Shown: positions 8,660-27,802 of the stretch, one piece after another
Position numbering within the stretch: position 1 is the first letter of the stretch
Layout of the letters: every line of letters begins with the position of its first letter
The notes under the pieces: generated by a model
Told to the model about the DNA's origin: nothing
The model's input: the letters and a program-made list of their open reading frames with translations, nothing else
The model's database searches: none
Assembly (NCBI GenBank): GCA_023954815.1
Contig: JAGSHB010000022.1
Location: forward strand, 1-49,351
Origin: Myxococcales bacterium
GTDB taxonomy: Bacteria > Myxococcota_A > UBA9042
Length of the DNA stretch: 49,351 nt
Direction: 5' to 3'
Position numbers and translations under genes: made by a program

Positions 8660-9250
8660 CTATTTCAGGCGTTTGAGTGCCGTGAGGGCTGCGTCGGCAT
8701 GCTCGTTGGGCGAGAGTGATTGTCCATCGGCGGGGAAACGCTCGACCACGGCGCCGGTTGGGTCGAGCACCAGGGTGATGCGGCTGGCGAAGGGTTGCGC
8801 TCCGAGGCGAATCACCCCGTAGTGCAGCGCAAGCGCCTTGTCGCCATCGCTCCACAGCGGATAGTTCAGGCGCTCCTTGGTATGAAATGCACGGTTGGCC
8901 TCAGCGCTGTCGAAGCTGACCCCGTAGACAGCGACGCCCATGGACGAAAATGCAGCGATCTGGTCGCGGAACCCGCGACTTTCTAGCGTTCAGCCGCTGG
9001 TTTGGGCTTTGGGATAGAACCACAACACCGACCAATGTCCGACGAGTGCCTCGTGAGACACCTTCGCGCCGTGGTGGTCGACGACGTCGGCGAAGAGGGA
9101 GCCTTTGACCGCTGTGCTTGGGCCGCGCTTGGGAACGGTGCACGCAACCGCAACGAGCATGGCTGCCGCGAGCATGATGTGGCTGACAAGCGACCGGGCC
9201 CTGCTGGCGGTCAAGAGCGAGGGGGCTAGGGAACGAGGGTAGATATTCAT
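8660..9250 (-). CDS. Peroxiredoxin, probable selenoprotein (in-frame TGA = Sec)
   Basis: Two open stretches (9250-8993 and 8989-8660) are in the same frame, separated only by a TGA at 8992-8990. Read through, they give a 196-residue AhpC/TSA peroxiredoxin of the Bcp type: an N-terminal hydrophobic signal (possible relaxed lipobox ending VAC, Cys37), the core strand SVLWFYPKAQTSG, Sec at residue 87, then TLESRGFRDQIAAF and GVAVYGVSFDS. In Bcp proteins the peroxidatic Cys occupies exactly this place (PGCT followed by GFRD), so TGA replaces the catalytic Cys codon. No resolving Cys follows, which implies a 1-Cys type mechanism. A SECIS-like hairpin begins 10 nt after the TGA. It would reduce peroxides, probably outside the cytoplasm. 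The start is uncertain (ATG 9250 or 9175; neither has a strong ribosome site). A nonsense mutation is the alternative. Confidence 0.8.
8963..8979 (-). promoter_or_regulatory. Candidate bacterial SECIS element
   Basis: On the minus strand the TGA (8992-8990) is followed by 10 nt and then a perfect hairpin, GTCGCGG-GTT-CCGCGAC (7-bp stem, 3-nt loop containing G and U). Bacterial SECIS elements sit just downstream of the Sec UGA, with a short stem and a G/U-containing apical loop read by SelB. The spacing and size here match that layout closely. The stem also encodes protein (SRGFRD), as is usual for bacterial SECIS. Confidence 0.7.
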
Positions 9251-9442
9251 GGCGTTAGTGTACCAGGAACGCCGATGGATTCCGCGGATTCGGTGGTGAG
9301 ATCGTCAGTGGGTCTTCGGCGCGCTCACCAAATGCACGGTAATTCAAGTAGATCAGATGGCTGTGTCGTGGCCACTTGACGATTTCCGAGCGCGATCAGA
9401 CCGTGCGCCCGTGGCCCATCCTCGGGCCCGCAAGGAGTGGCC

Positions 9443-12058
9443 ATGTGTGGTGTCATCGGTCTCGTTTATGAGCATCATCGCAGCGACCTCGGTAGAATCG
9501 CCGGTGAGTTGCTCAAAACCTTGGAATACCGAGGGTATGACTCGACGGGCGGCGCCATCCAAGGCGATGACGTTAGCGTGGATCTGCGGAAAGGCGTTGG
9601 TGCGCCCAGTGTGATGGCCGACAAACTCGGTATCACCAGCCTCGGCGGACGGATCTTCTGTGGCCAGGTGCGCTGGGCAACCTTTGGCGCGGTGGATGAC
9701 GCCAACGCACAGCCCCACGTCGTTCGGTGCAAGTCCTTCCTGTACGGGGCGCACAACGGTAACGTGACCAACAGTGATGAGCTGAAGGCGTGGCTGACGA
9801 GTGAAGGCCACGACGTAAAAAGCGACAATGACGGTGAGATGGTCGTGCACACCATCGAGCATTGCTTCGAGGGGCTGCTGTCTCAGGAAACCGAGGCTCA
9901 CCGCGAGCTACCTGACGTGCGTAAGCGTGTCATGCGGGCAGCCATCGCCTCGGCGTCTCAGCGACTGCAGGGCAGCTTTGCGGCCGTCATTGTCGACCCA
10001 AAAGTGCGGACGGCGTGGGCTATCAAGCTCGGTTCGAGCCTGTATTGCGGCGTTGGCACATCCGAAGTCGGCGGTCGTTTTGTCATCGCGTCGAGTGATT
10101 TGTCGTCGGTGCTCAAGCTCACCCGCGTGGTACTGCCGATGGTCGAGGGCGAGTTCGTTGAGATGAGCGCCACCGGTCACCAAATGTACGGCATCACCGG
10201 CGGCGGCGAAGGTGTTCAGCCGCTGGATCGCGAGCCGGTTCGCAGTCGCCTGCAGGCGGCCGATATCGGGCTGACCCCGCCCTTTGAGACCTTCATGGAT
10301 CAGGAGATCGCCGCACAGGAGGGCACGGTTCGCGATGTGGTGCGTCTGTTGCTCGGCGGCTCCGAGTTCACCCGTTCGCTCAGTGAGCTTTTTGAGGCTG
10401 TGACCGACAAGGACGTGGCGCAGCTGCAGGCGGGAATCGATGGGCTGCGCAGCCTCACCGACGATGGCGAGCTCCGAGATGGCTTCCGAAAGCTGGCGGA
10501 TGGCCCCGCCTTTCAGCGCCTGGTGCAGTCTGTTCCAGCGGGCGTAAGAGCCGAAGCGCTGCGCGGTGGTGCAGACGCGCTTTTGTCCGCGGAGGCGGGA
10601 TTCCTGGGCGATTTGCTGCCCATGGCCCGCCATGAAGCGGACCGGGTGTCCGTGCGGCTACTCGATTGTGTGCTTGAGCGCGCGGATGTTCGGGAGTGGT
10701 CAGCGGCCGTCGACGCCTTCGTCGAGCGCTGCATCTCCGCGATTGAGCAACGTGGCCGGCTGTACGTCGTCTGCTGTGGCTCGAGCTTTCACGCCGCAAA
10801 GGCGGGTGCTGTGTTCTTCAACGCCATCGCACGGTGTGAGCTGCTTGCGGTGTTGCCGGGCGAATTCCGTGGCCAGCATGCGCGCAGTCTTCAGGACGGA
10901 GACGTGGTGCTCGCCGTGAGCCAGAGCGGCGAGACGAAAGATCTCATCGACGTACTCAACGACGTCATCGCTGGACCGGAGAAGGTCAGCTGCATGGGGC
11001 TGGTCAACAACGTCAATTCGACGCTGGGTCAGGAGAAGGCGGAGGTCGTCATTCCGTTGCGCTGTGGGCCCGAGATCGCGGTACCTGCGACCAAGAGCTT
11101 CATGAACCAGGTGGCTGTGTTTTACGGTCTCGCTATTCGGTTGGGTGCTGCCCGCGTCAATGCTGGTCATCTGTCAGGTGAGGCGCGCGCCGAGATGAAC
11201 ACAGACGTGACCGCACGCGTCGCCAAGCTGCCGAGCTTGCCGGACTTGCTGCGCGCGACATTCGAGAGCACCGACGCGGCGATCGAGGAGGCGGCGCAGC
11301 TGTTGTACCTCAAGCCGTCGATGCACCTGCTGGCGATTCGGCATATCGCCGTGGCCAAGGAAGGCGCGCTGAAGATCCGCGAGGTGGTGCTCAATCATGC
11401 TGAGGGATTTGAGGGCTCGGAGTTCAAGCACGGTCCGAACACGATTTTGGGCAAGAACACGATATGGGGACCGCGACAGGTTCAACGTCTGCTGCAGTCC
11501 ACCGGGCACGCGATTGACGCTGTGGCTGAGAGGGCTGCGGATGGTCGCCTGAGTCCGAAGTCGGCGCGGCGCGTGGCCCGCGCGGTGTCGGATGCGCTGT
11601 TCAGCCCGGAAGGAAGTTTCGCGCTGGCGGACGATGAACGCGCGCTGCTCGACAAGATCTTCGATCGCGATGCGGCGCTCAATACACTCGATAGCGACTA
11701 CCCGCTGGTGTTCATCACCGGGCCCGACGAGCGCGACGTCTTGCTGGCTGTGTCACAGATCAACACGCACAAAATCCGCGGCGCGTGCACGGTGGTCATC
11801 GCTGAAGATCACCCCGCGCTCCAGACCGCCGCGAGCAAAGCGCCGGCGGATAACCCCGGCTATCGGCACGTGACCATCACGCTGCCGCGCACCGACGACA
11901 CGCTGATGACCCCGTTTTCCGCGACGTTGGTGCTGCAACGGCTCGCGCTCAAGATGAGCCTGCTGAAGATGCACCACCTCGACCGACTCGGGATGGAAGG
12001 CCACGGTGTGCACCCCGACGTGCCGAAGAATGTGAGCAAGTCGATTACGGTCGACTAG
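9443..12058 (+). CDS. glmS: GlmS-like glutamine amidotransferase / double SIS-domain protein (871 aa)
   Basis: The ATG at 9443 follows AAGGAG and gives MCGVIG, so after Met removal Cys1 is the N-terminal nucleophile of a class II glutaminase. The in-frame GTG at 9437 would bury it. The glutaminase domain (2 to about 245) has YRGYDSTGG and HNGNVTN. SIS domain 1 has CCGSSFHAAKAG and AVSQSGETKDL (442-500). SIS domain 2 has AKEGALKIREVVLNHAEGFEG and EFKHGP (638-665). The C-terminus, DVPKNVSKSITVD, matches the GlmS end. Known GlmS (about 609 aa) makes glucosamine-6-phosphate from fructose-6-phosphate and glutamine. This one has about 260 extra residues: one insert between the glutaminase and SIS1 (about 305-435) and one inside SIS2 (about 672-752). 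The same reaction is likely but unproven. Its TAG stop lies inside repeat copy A. Confidence 0.85.
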   Translation: MCGVIGLVYEHHRSDLGRIAGELLKTLEYRGYDSTGGAIQGDDVSVDLRKGVGAPSVMADKLGITSLGGRIFCGQVRWATFGAVDDANAQPHVVRCKSFLYGAHNGNVTNSDELKAWLTSEGHDVKSDNDGEMVVHTIEHCFEGLLSQETEAHRELPDVRKRVMRAAIASASQRLQGSFAAVIVDPKVRTAWAIKLGSSLYCGVGTSEVGGRFVIASSDLSSVLKLTRVVLPMVEGEFVEMSATGHQMYGITGGGEGVQPLDREPVRSRLQAADIGLTPPFETFMDQEIAAQEGTVRDVVRLLLGGSEFTRSLSELFEAVTDKDVAQLQAGIDGLRSLTDDGELRDGFRKLADGPAFQRLVQSVPAGVRAEALRGGADALLSAEAGFLGDLLPMARHEADRVSVRLLDCVLERADVREWSAAVDAFVERCISAIEQRGRLYVVCCGSSFHAAKAGAVFFNAIARCELLAVLPGEFRGQHARSLQDGDVVLAVSQSGETKDLIDVLNDVIAGPEKVSCMGLVNNVNSTLGQEKAEVVIPLRCGPEIAVPATKSFMNQVAVFYGLAIRLGAARVNAGHLSGEARAEMNTDVTARVAKLPSLPDLLRATFESTDAAIEEAAQLLYLKPSMHLLAIRHIAVAKEGALKIREVVLNHAEGFEGSEFKHGPNTILGKNTIWGPRQVQRLLQSTGHAIDAVAERAADGRLSPKSARRVARAVSDALFSPEGSFALADDERALLDKIFDRDAALNTLDSDYPLVFITGPDERDVLLAVSQINTHKIRGACTVVIAEDHPALQTAASKAPADNPGYRHVTITLPRTDDTLMTPFSATLVLQRLALKMSLLKMHHLDRLGMEGHGVHPDVPKNVSKSITVD

Positions 12059-12252: not shown

Positions 12253-14553
<2,301 letters not shown>

Positions 14554-25570: not shown

Positions 25571-27802
25571 GTGAGCCAGCGCAGTCACCTTCATACGCGC
25601 ACCTTTGTGGCGACGCTGGTGGCCACACTCGCAGCGCTTGCGGTCGGCGCCTTCTTCGTTGGTCCTGCGCTGGTCGCCTCTGAGGCGGGCACAGAGGCGG
25701 GTGCGCTTACTCTCCGCCTGAGCGGCTGGGTCGCATTTGCGTTGCTGTTGTCCGCAGGCGTCACTTGGTGGACATCTCGTTGGCTGGGAGAGTCCCTGAC
25801 CCGTTTGCGTGAGCTCATCGGTCAGAGTCCCAAAGCCCTTTCCGCTGAAGGTGTCGACGAGCCGGCCCTCCGGCCGTTGGCAACCGCTGTCCGCAGATTG
25901 TCTGGCGATCTAAATGACGCACTCCGCCGCTTGGCTGATGAACGGGCTCGTCTGTTGGCGGTTCTGGAGGGGATGGAAGACGCCGTCGTCGCAACGAATG
26001 ACGAGGGCATGGTGACGCTCGCCAACAGCGAGGCGCGCTTGCTGCTGGGGGGCAAGGGCTCGCCGGTCGGTCAGTTGCTGCTCGACGTCATTCGTGCGCC
26101 AGCACTGCACGATTTGGCAGACCGCGTCGCCAACGGTGAGCACGACACTGCTCAGCTGGACCTGCCAGGACCGCCGGAGCGGCATTTACTCGTTCGTGGG
26201 GCGCCGCAGCGCAATGGCGGGGCCGTATTGGTGCTCCAGGACACCACGCGTCGCCGGCAACTTGAGCAGATGCGCCGCGAGTTTGTGGCCAATGTCTCCC
26301 ATGAGTTGCGTACACCGGTCAGCGTTATTCGCGCCAATGCGGAAACGCTCTTAGACGGCGCAATTTCGGACCCAGAGTTTGCCCGCGGCTTTCTGGAGGC
26401 GCTGGTCCGCAATGCCGATCGGCTCTCGGCTTTGGTGTCTGACCTCTTGGATTTGTCCCGAGTCGAATCGGGCCAATATCCCATTGAACGCCGACGCATG
26501 ACTCCCCAGTCCGCCGTGCAATCAGTCGTCGAATCGTTGGGCCAAACCGCCATCAACGCCGGACTCGACCTGCGCACGCAGATACCGCCGAGCATCGAGA
26601 CCTATGCCGACCCCAAGGCCGTGGAGCAGGTGCTCATCAACCTGATTCATAACGCCATCAAACACAGCCCCGATCAGGGTCTCATCTCCGTCATCGCTAC
26701 GCCGGAGGACGATACGGTCCGCATCGCTGTCGCCGACCAGGGACCAGGTATTCCGGTTCCACTGCGCGCCCGAATTTTCGAGCGTTTCTACCGTGTCGAC
26801 AAGGGGCGTGCGCGTGAGGTTGGTGGCACCGGACTGGGCCTCGCCATCGTGCGCACCCTCGTCTCCGCGATGGGGGGCACGGTCGGGGTCGGAGACGCGC
26901 CTGATGGCTCCGGTGGGGCTGAGTTTTGGTTCACGTTGCCTCGGTTTCGCTCGGTGTTCGAAGACGAGGCAGGTCGCAGCTATGTGCGGATGGCGGTCAC
27001 GCCACAGGCCGCCGACTCCAGCGTCGACTTTGAACTGGATTCAGGCGTTCAGGAGCTGCGCCGCCGTATTCTCCTCATGGCAGGGCGCGTCGAGGAGATG
27101 ATCGCGCACGCGGCGCGCGCAGTGGTGCAGCGCGATCTGGAGTTGGCCCGCAAAACGATCCGCGCCGATCGCAACGTCAATCGCGACGAGATTGAAACCG
27201 ACGAACTGTGCCTTCGCCTGCTGGAACGCCAGGACATGGGTTCTGCCGACCTACGCTTCATCACCCGCGCCAGCAAGATGGTCACCGATCTGGAGCGTAT
27301 TGCCGATCTTGCGGTCAACATCTGTGAGCGCACGGAACGCTTGCAGGGCACGCCGCGGATGGCTGCCGGAGGTGAGATTCCGAGGATGGCGGGGTTGGTA
27401 CAGTCGATGGTACGGGATGTCATCGATGCGTTCGTCGGTCGGGATCCCCGCCGTGCCCATGCCGTCATCGCGCGCGACGACGAGGTGGATGCGCTCTATC
27501 ACGATGTCTCGCGCGAGGTGATGGCGCTGATGACCAGCGGCAAGGAGTGGGTCGAGCCCGGCATTCACGTGCAGGCCGTCGCGAAATTTCTCGAGCGTAT
27601 GGCCGACCACGCCACGAACTTGGCTGAGCAGGTCGTCTTCATGGTGCGCGGCGACGAGATTCGCCATCCGGGCAAACTCGGCGCCATTGAGGCAGCACAG
27701 CGCGCTGTGCACTTGACGGATGACCCCGACAATCCTTATGAGCCAAGCCCTCCCGCGGAACAATCGAGCGCGACTAGCGCACAAGTTGAGGTCATCGAAT
27801 GA
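25571..27802 (+). CDS. PhoR-type histidine kinase fused to PhoU
   Basis: The GTG at 25571 follows GAGGGATC; the product is 743 aa. It has two membrane helices (about 11-35 and 52-68), a HAMP/PAS-like region (to about 225), HisKA with His244 in REFVANVSHELRTPVS, and an ATPase domain with NLIHNAIKHSP, DQGPGIP and GGTGLGLAIV (to about 458). A linker then joins it to a complete PhoU domain (about 487-695), opening FELDSGVQELRRRILLMAG and carrying both PhoU metal-site motifs, DLERIADLAVNI (573-584) and FLERMADHATNL (673-684). PhoR phosphorylates PhoB; PhoU normally acts as a separate protein that keeps PhoR off when phosphate is plentiful. Here both are one polypeptide. The stop overlaps the start of the next gene (ATGA). 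Confidence 0.9.
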   Translation: MSQRSHLHTRTFVATLVATLAALAVGAFFVGPALVASEAGTEAGALTLRLSGWVAFALLLSAGVTWWTSRWLGESLTRLRELIGQSPKALSAEGVDEPALRPLATAVRRLSGDLNDALRRLADERARLLAVLEGMEDAVVATNDEGMVTLANSEARLLLGGKGSPVGQLLLDVIRAPALHDLADRVANGEHDTAQLDLPGPPERHLLVRGAPQRNGGAVLVLQDTTRRRQLEQMRREFVANVSHELRTPVSVIRANAETLLDGAISDPEFARGFLEALVRNADRLSALVSDLLDLSRVESGQYPIERRRMTPQSAVQSVVESLGQTAINAGLDLRTQIPPSIETYADPKAVEQVLINLIHNAIKHSPDQGLISVIATPEDDTVRIAVADQGPGIPVPLRARIFERFYRVDKGRAREVGGTGLGLAIVRTLVSAMGGTVGVGDAPDGSGGAEFWFTLPRFRSVFEDEAGRSYVRMAVTPQAADSSVDFELDSGVQELRRRILLMAGRVEEMIAHAARAVVQRDLELARKTIRADRNVNRDEIETDELCLRLLERQDMGSADLRFITRASKMVTDLERIADLAVNICERTERLQGTPRMAAGGEIPRMAGLVQSMVRDVIDAFVGRDPRRAHAVIARDDEVDALYHDVSREVMALMTSGKEWVEPGIHVQAVAKFLERMADHATNLAEQVVFMVRGDEIRHPGKLGAIEAAQRAVHLTDDPDNPYEPSPPAEQSSATSAQVEVIE

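Follow-up and report, generated by a model that had tools for sequence, protein, structure and literature searches.

The peroxiredoxin gene at 8660..9250 (minus strand) of the window, i.e. the entire analysed stretch of 49,351 nt, raises the question whether its internal TGA marks a broken gene or is translated as selenocysteine (Sec). The frame starts with ATG at 9250 and ends with TAG at 8662-8660, comprising 196 codons with codon 87 (8992-8990) as the only in-frame TGA. As claimed by the first-pass annotation, this single TGA lies within a continuous frame of the Bcp type: Pfam AhpC-TSA (PF00578) extends uninterrupted across it (residues 57-170, E 6.9e-25). Read through, the gene is complete and encodes an AhpC/TSA protein of Bcp/PrxQ type with 196 aa and predicted Sec at residue 87. 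Moreover, the codon-usage signal on both sides ranks this TGA first among 171 TGAs flanked by open frames. The region downstream of the TGA is under purifying selection, the dN/dS against two orthologues of the genus being about 0.25-0.36 after the TGA and of the same order before it (0.20-0.25). A sigma-70-type promoter was not found upstream of the gene.

The best PDB sequence matches of the read-through protein are Bcp/PrxQ proteins. An AlphaFold model built from 28 family members shows a mean pLDDT of 84.8 with values >90 in the core and most of the domain, and matches Bcp/PrxQ structures with Z 20-23. Residues 39-196 share the fold of Xanthomonas campestris PrxQ (5iph/3gkm) and M. tuberculosis BcpB (5epf), with Sec predicted in place of their Cys (VIA-align: Z 22-23, rmsd 2.1-2.6 A, 30-34% identity). 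Given the high pLDDT and the match to BcpB and PrxQ, the residues encoded past the TGA are part of an intact fold.

In the clade alignment the TGA (8990..8992, minus strand) occupies the peroxidatic position, giving P80-x-x-x-T84-x-x-U87. The surrounding residues F-Y-P80-K-A-Q-T84-S-G-U87-T represent the active-site motif PxxxTxxC of peroxiredoxins with Sec replacing Cys, while R157, invariant in the clade, corresponds to the Arg in Bcp's R-S-T-F segment. The search for homologues covered 90 genomes, drawn from the genus and from its family, class and phylum (Myxococcota). Each of the best 26 matches to the protein has exactly one TGA, located at the Sec column in those matches that were read. 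Scattered further stops in relatives, named beforehand as an argument against Sec, were not seen in any of these. Altogether 30 related Myxococcota genes of the clade carry TGA in the same column, whereas 15 more distant homologues have Cys there; both the placement of the TGA on the catalytic Cys column and the suggested U/C exchange are thus borne out. An additional search for related loci returned known matches (L047/L048, the same as L018/L019) and a distant Cys homologue (L049). A tree with 49 rows implies three changes between the Sec and Cys forms. Two small Sec groups are placed among Cys enzymes, and one Cys row lies inside the large Sec clade with weak support.

One might instead suppose that a nonsense mutation has disrupted a gene for a Cys-peroxiredoxin, or that TGC/TGT was misread as TGA during sequencing; either would need a single base change only, and Cys homologues do exist. 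Nevertheless this explanation is vanishingly improbable and in practice already refuted by conservation: assemblies made independently, from the genus up through family and class to the phylum, carry TGA at the same codon. The purifying selection downstream of the TGA argues against it as well, as do two findings detailed below, namely the full Sec machinery in the genome and a hairpin conserved in TGA forms only.

The complete Sec machinery, the lack of which would have spoken against a selenoprotein, is encoded by this genome: a tRNA-Sec whose anticodon is UCA (78.5 bits), SelA (407 bits), SelB (278 bits, above the cut-off of 242) and SelD (397 bits). The respective contigs have the same GC content (62-64%) as the window. 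SelD is itself a predicted Sec protein with an in-frame TGA (GAG-U-ACK; C154:15282-16220, L015), hence selenophosphate synthesis would depend on Sec decoding. Sec-containing SelD occurs in many bacteria. Across the genomes, SelA is present in 28 of 29 with a TGA-peroxiredoxin versus 32 of the 61 remaining ones (Fisher p 1e-5). It was not found in G039, which is 87% complete and has a TGA-peroxiredoxin of the clade, most likely owing to an assembly gap.

Alternatively the TGA might be read as another amino acid (Trp, Cys or Arg) by recoding of the stop or by near-cognate read-through, and UGA read-through is a known leak in bacteria. However, TGA ends 5 of 20 long ORFs of the window and is thus an ordinary stop in this organism. 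Moreover, the codon falls exactly on the Cys column, a SECIS hairpin follows and tRNA-Sec is present. We consider such a reading highly improbable, if marginally less so than a broken gene. Pseudogene, sequencing error and recoded TGA are effectively excluded, leaving insertion of Sec as the preferred reading.

The hairpin GUCGCGG-GUU-CCGCGAC (8963..8979, minus strand) consists of a 7-bp Watson-Crick stem (8979-8973 / 8969-8963) and a GUU loop. The stem begins exactly 10 nt past the TGA, as described in the first-pass annotation, and the loop 17 nt past it. The published bacterial SECIS (bSECIS) model comprises a loop of 3-9 nt, a stem of 4-16 bp, G in the first two loop positions, a spacing of 16-37 nt and an MFE of at most -7.5 (PMC13188914). 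With its 3-nt GUU loop, 7 bp, 17 nt and -12.9 kcal/mol the window hairpin agrees with this model on all four counts. A 7-bp Watson-Crick stem with a 3-nt G[GU] loop 16-37 nt past a TGA occurs for just one of 1469 TGAs in the window, that of codon 87; looser stems (at least 7 bp, G-U allowed) follow 7% of the 1469 TGA triplets. The fold energy of the single hairpin is not unusual (z -0.32, not significant), hence conservation was used as evidence instead. Eight pairs (the 7-bp stem and one flanking pair) are formed in 96.3% of the cells in 30 Sec clade members versus 42-49% when the same pairs are slid. Two stem pairs are altered on both sides, from G-C to U-A in L033 and from G-C to A-U in L032.

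As the region also encodes the conserved peptide G-C-G-F-R-D, synonymous codons provide the strongest test of the hairpin. Gly at +4 from Sec is encoded by GGT in 27 of 28 genes, compared with a background of 17% for Gly elsewhere in these genes, and Gly at +6 by GGG in 28 of 29 (background 15%). The hairpin is absent from the 15 Cys homologues, which encode a similar peptide with different codons, and their folding is weaker (-9.2 versus -13.7 kcal/mol in Sec forms, n=15 Cys homologues, p 2e-5). All codon and hairpin counts stem from related sequences such that nominal p values overstate independence, but the direction of the evidence is not in doubt. Rfam SECIS_1 gave no match in the organism's own genome and is uninformative because it failed in all controls, too; an Rfam search of the region yielded chance matches only. 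The clade hairpin pattern retrieved a paralogue on contig C102 alone from the own genome, the window copy being just beyond the mismatch limit. Judged from sequence, the hairpin after UGA 87 is a SECIS.

Very probably, the in-gene "stop" codon codes for Sec, the catalytic residue of the enzyme. With a continuous conserved frame, a clade-wide TGA in the catalytic column, a conserved hairpin and complete Sec machinery, we hold with high confidence that the locus is a genuine selenoprotein gene. It would encode a peroxidase of Bcp/PrxQ fold, probably exported and lipid-anchored. In vivo, a ribosome reaching UGA 87 would meet the downstream hairpin that recruits SelB with Sec-tRNA-Sec; Sec would be inserted and translation continue to the TAG at 8662-8660.

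Enzymes of the 2-Cys Bcp/PrxQ type have a resolving Cys at +5, which is also seen in 25 of 34 Sec homologues. In the window protein the alignment shows Arg92 at this site (8975..8977, minus strand; CGC for TGC), an exchange shared by its two orthologues of the genus. No Cys follows Sec87, the sole Cys of the protein being C37. Hence Sec would be the only redox residue of the mature protein and its selenenic acid would need an outside thiol. According to the predicted mechanism, P80, T84 and R157 prime Sec87, whose selenolate attacks peroxides and is converted to selenenic acid; an external thiol would then reduce this acid (one-Sec mechanism). With TGC changed to CGC, the single U-G pair in the SECIS stem becomes C-G; the overlap with the SECIS may therefore have favoured the exchange of Cys for Arg. 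The locus is a clean case of a coding sequence and a SECIS that overlap, each constraining the other.

Bcp/PrxQ enzymes such as PrxQ and BcpB are cytosolic and not known to carry a lipobox. In contrast, comparison with orthologues points to a signal sequence at the N-terminus of the window protein (9140..9250, minus strand), ending with a relaxed lipobox at Cys37 (9142-9140). This lipobox, which had been claimed before, reads A-V-A-C37 and is relaxed by A at -3. The pattern tested was [LVI][ASTVI][GAS]C; the window protein has AVAC, and the two closest orthologues have the canonical sites LAAC and LGGC, both located at -53 relative to Sec, as is Cys37. Among 28 clade members, the regular expression [LVIAMF][ASTVIG][GAS]C finds a suitably placed site in 14, and a looser rule applied by eye adds a lipobox-like site in ten more. 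The remaining four (L034, L036, L038, L052) have short N-termini without a lipobox.

These short N-termini and the relaxed AVAC would also suit a cytoplasmic Sec-peroxiredoxin, the hydrophobic N-terminus being no lipoprotein signal or the start lying further downstream. We regard a cytoplasmic enzyme as unlikely, with roughly one chance in five, considering the canonical sites at -53 in the two closest orthologues and the lipobox followed by an Asp/Ala/Thr-rich linker in most clade members. The peroxiredoxin is probably an exported lipoprotein, which would leave the cytoplasm by its signal peptide and be anchored through lipidated Cys37. Tentatively, and with slightly less than even confidence, we extend this to a Myxococcota clade whose Sec peroxiredoxins would be exported and anchored to the membrane, with this genus as a one-Sec branch that lacks the resolving Cys and whose enzyme would act as an extracytoplasmic selenol peroxidase. 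The gene offers a testable case in which Sec would serve to reduce peroxides beyond the cytoplasm in the absence of a resolving Cys.

Sec-containing peroxiredoxins with a TxxU motif (COG1225, Bcp-type) are an established selenoprotein family (PMC1088965, PMC1794560, PMC13188914). The Sargasso Sea set contains 43 such COG1225 Sec genes (PMC1088965), a survey of bacteria counted 91 Sec peroxiredoxins (PMC5029168), and the myxobacterium Anaeromyxobacter dehalogenans has three of these genes (PMC1794560, Table 3). The gene described here adds to the known Sec peroxiredoxins of Bcp type, with which it shares the AhpC/TSA domain, the PxxxTxxU motif and a bSECIS directly after the UGA. The predicted lipoprotein signal and the lack of the resolving Cys in the genus set it apart as unusual variant features, a distinction drawn without direct comparison to published sequences. 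A literature search for a Sec peroxiredoxin with lipoprotein signal returned no paper, which does not show absence. As far as the citing paper describes it, PrxU of Eubacterium acidaminophilum is a Sec peroxiredoxin (Sohling 2001, cited in PMC13188914) that likewise has Sec as peroxidatic residue. The window protein scores only 25 bits against NF040737 (PrxU; cut-off 270) and hence belongs to a different subfamily.

Outside the clade, four genes of other peroxiredoxin subfamilies (L044, L055, L056 and L057 in G065, G056, G069 and G061, respectively) carry TGA at the same catalytic column without the hairpin sequence of the Bcp clade. Apparently these are independent changes from Cys to Sec within the phylum.

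The organism's own genome encodes a second Sec-peroxiredoxin with the motif TAGUT and the same hairpin (C102:465-836, L051). Moreover, four AhpC/TSA-like genes with one TGA each were found, reading GGWUPYC (C236:12871-13305, L081), GHWUSHC (C153:18655-19020, L082), AAWUSFC (C124:21179-21469, L095) and QGWUTSC (C216:7482-7793, L093). Clear SECIS-like stem-loops follow the TGA in four of these five further genes, i.e. C102 and three others, and G is found in the first two loop positions in three of the four W-U genes. Two Sec-peroxiredoxins, a Sec-containing SelD and four more active-site TGAs in one genome hence indicate an uncultured Myxococcota member rich in thioredoxin-fold selenoproteins. 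Standard gene callers split such Sec genes in two.

Other genes of the window show noteworthy domain arrangements. A PhoR-like histidine kinase (PAS-HisKA-HATPase) is fused to a full-length PhoU in one frame of 743 aa (25571-27802, plus strand), the PhoU part reaching 184.6 bits with TIGR02135 (cut-off 130). At 9437-12058 (plus strand) a GlmS-like protein of 873 aa combines GATase and SIS domains; it scores below the GlmS cut-off and exceeds the model length by about 260 aa. The gene at 12253-14553 (minus strand) encodes a glutamine-tRNA ligase with a fused YqeY domain (NF011291, 1061 bits), which is a known fusion.
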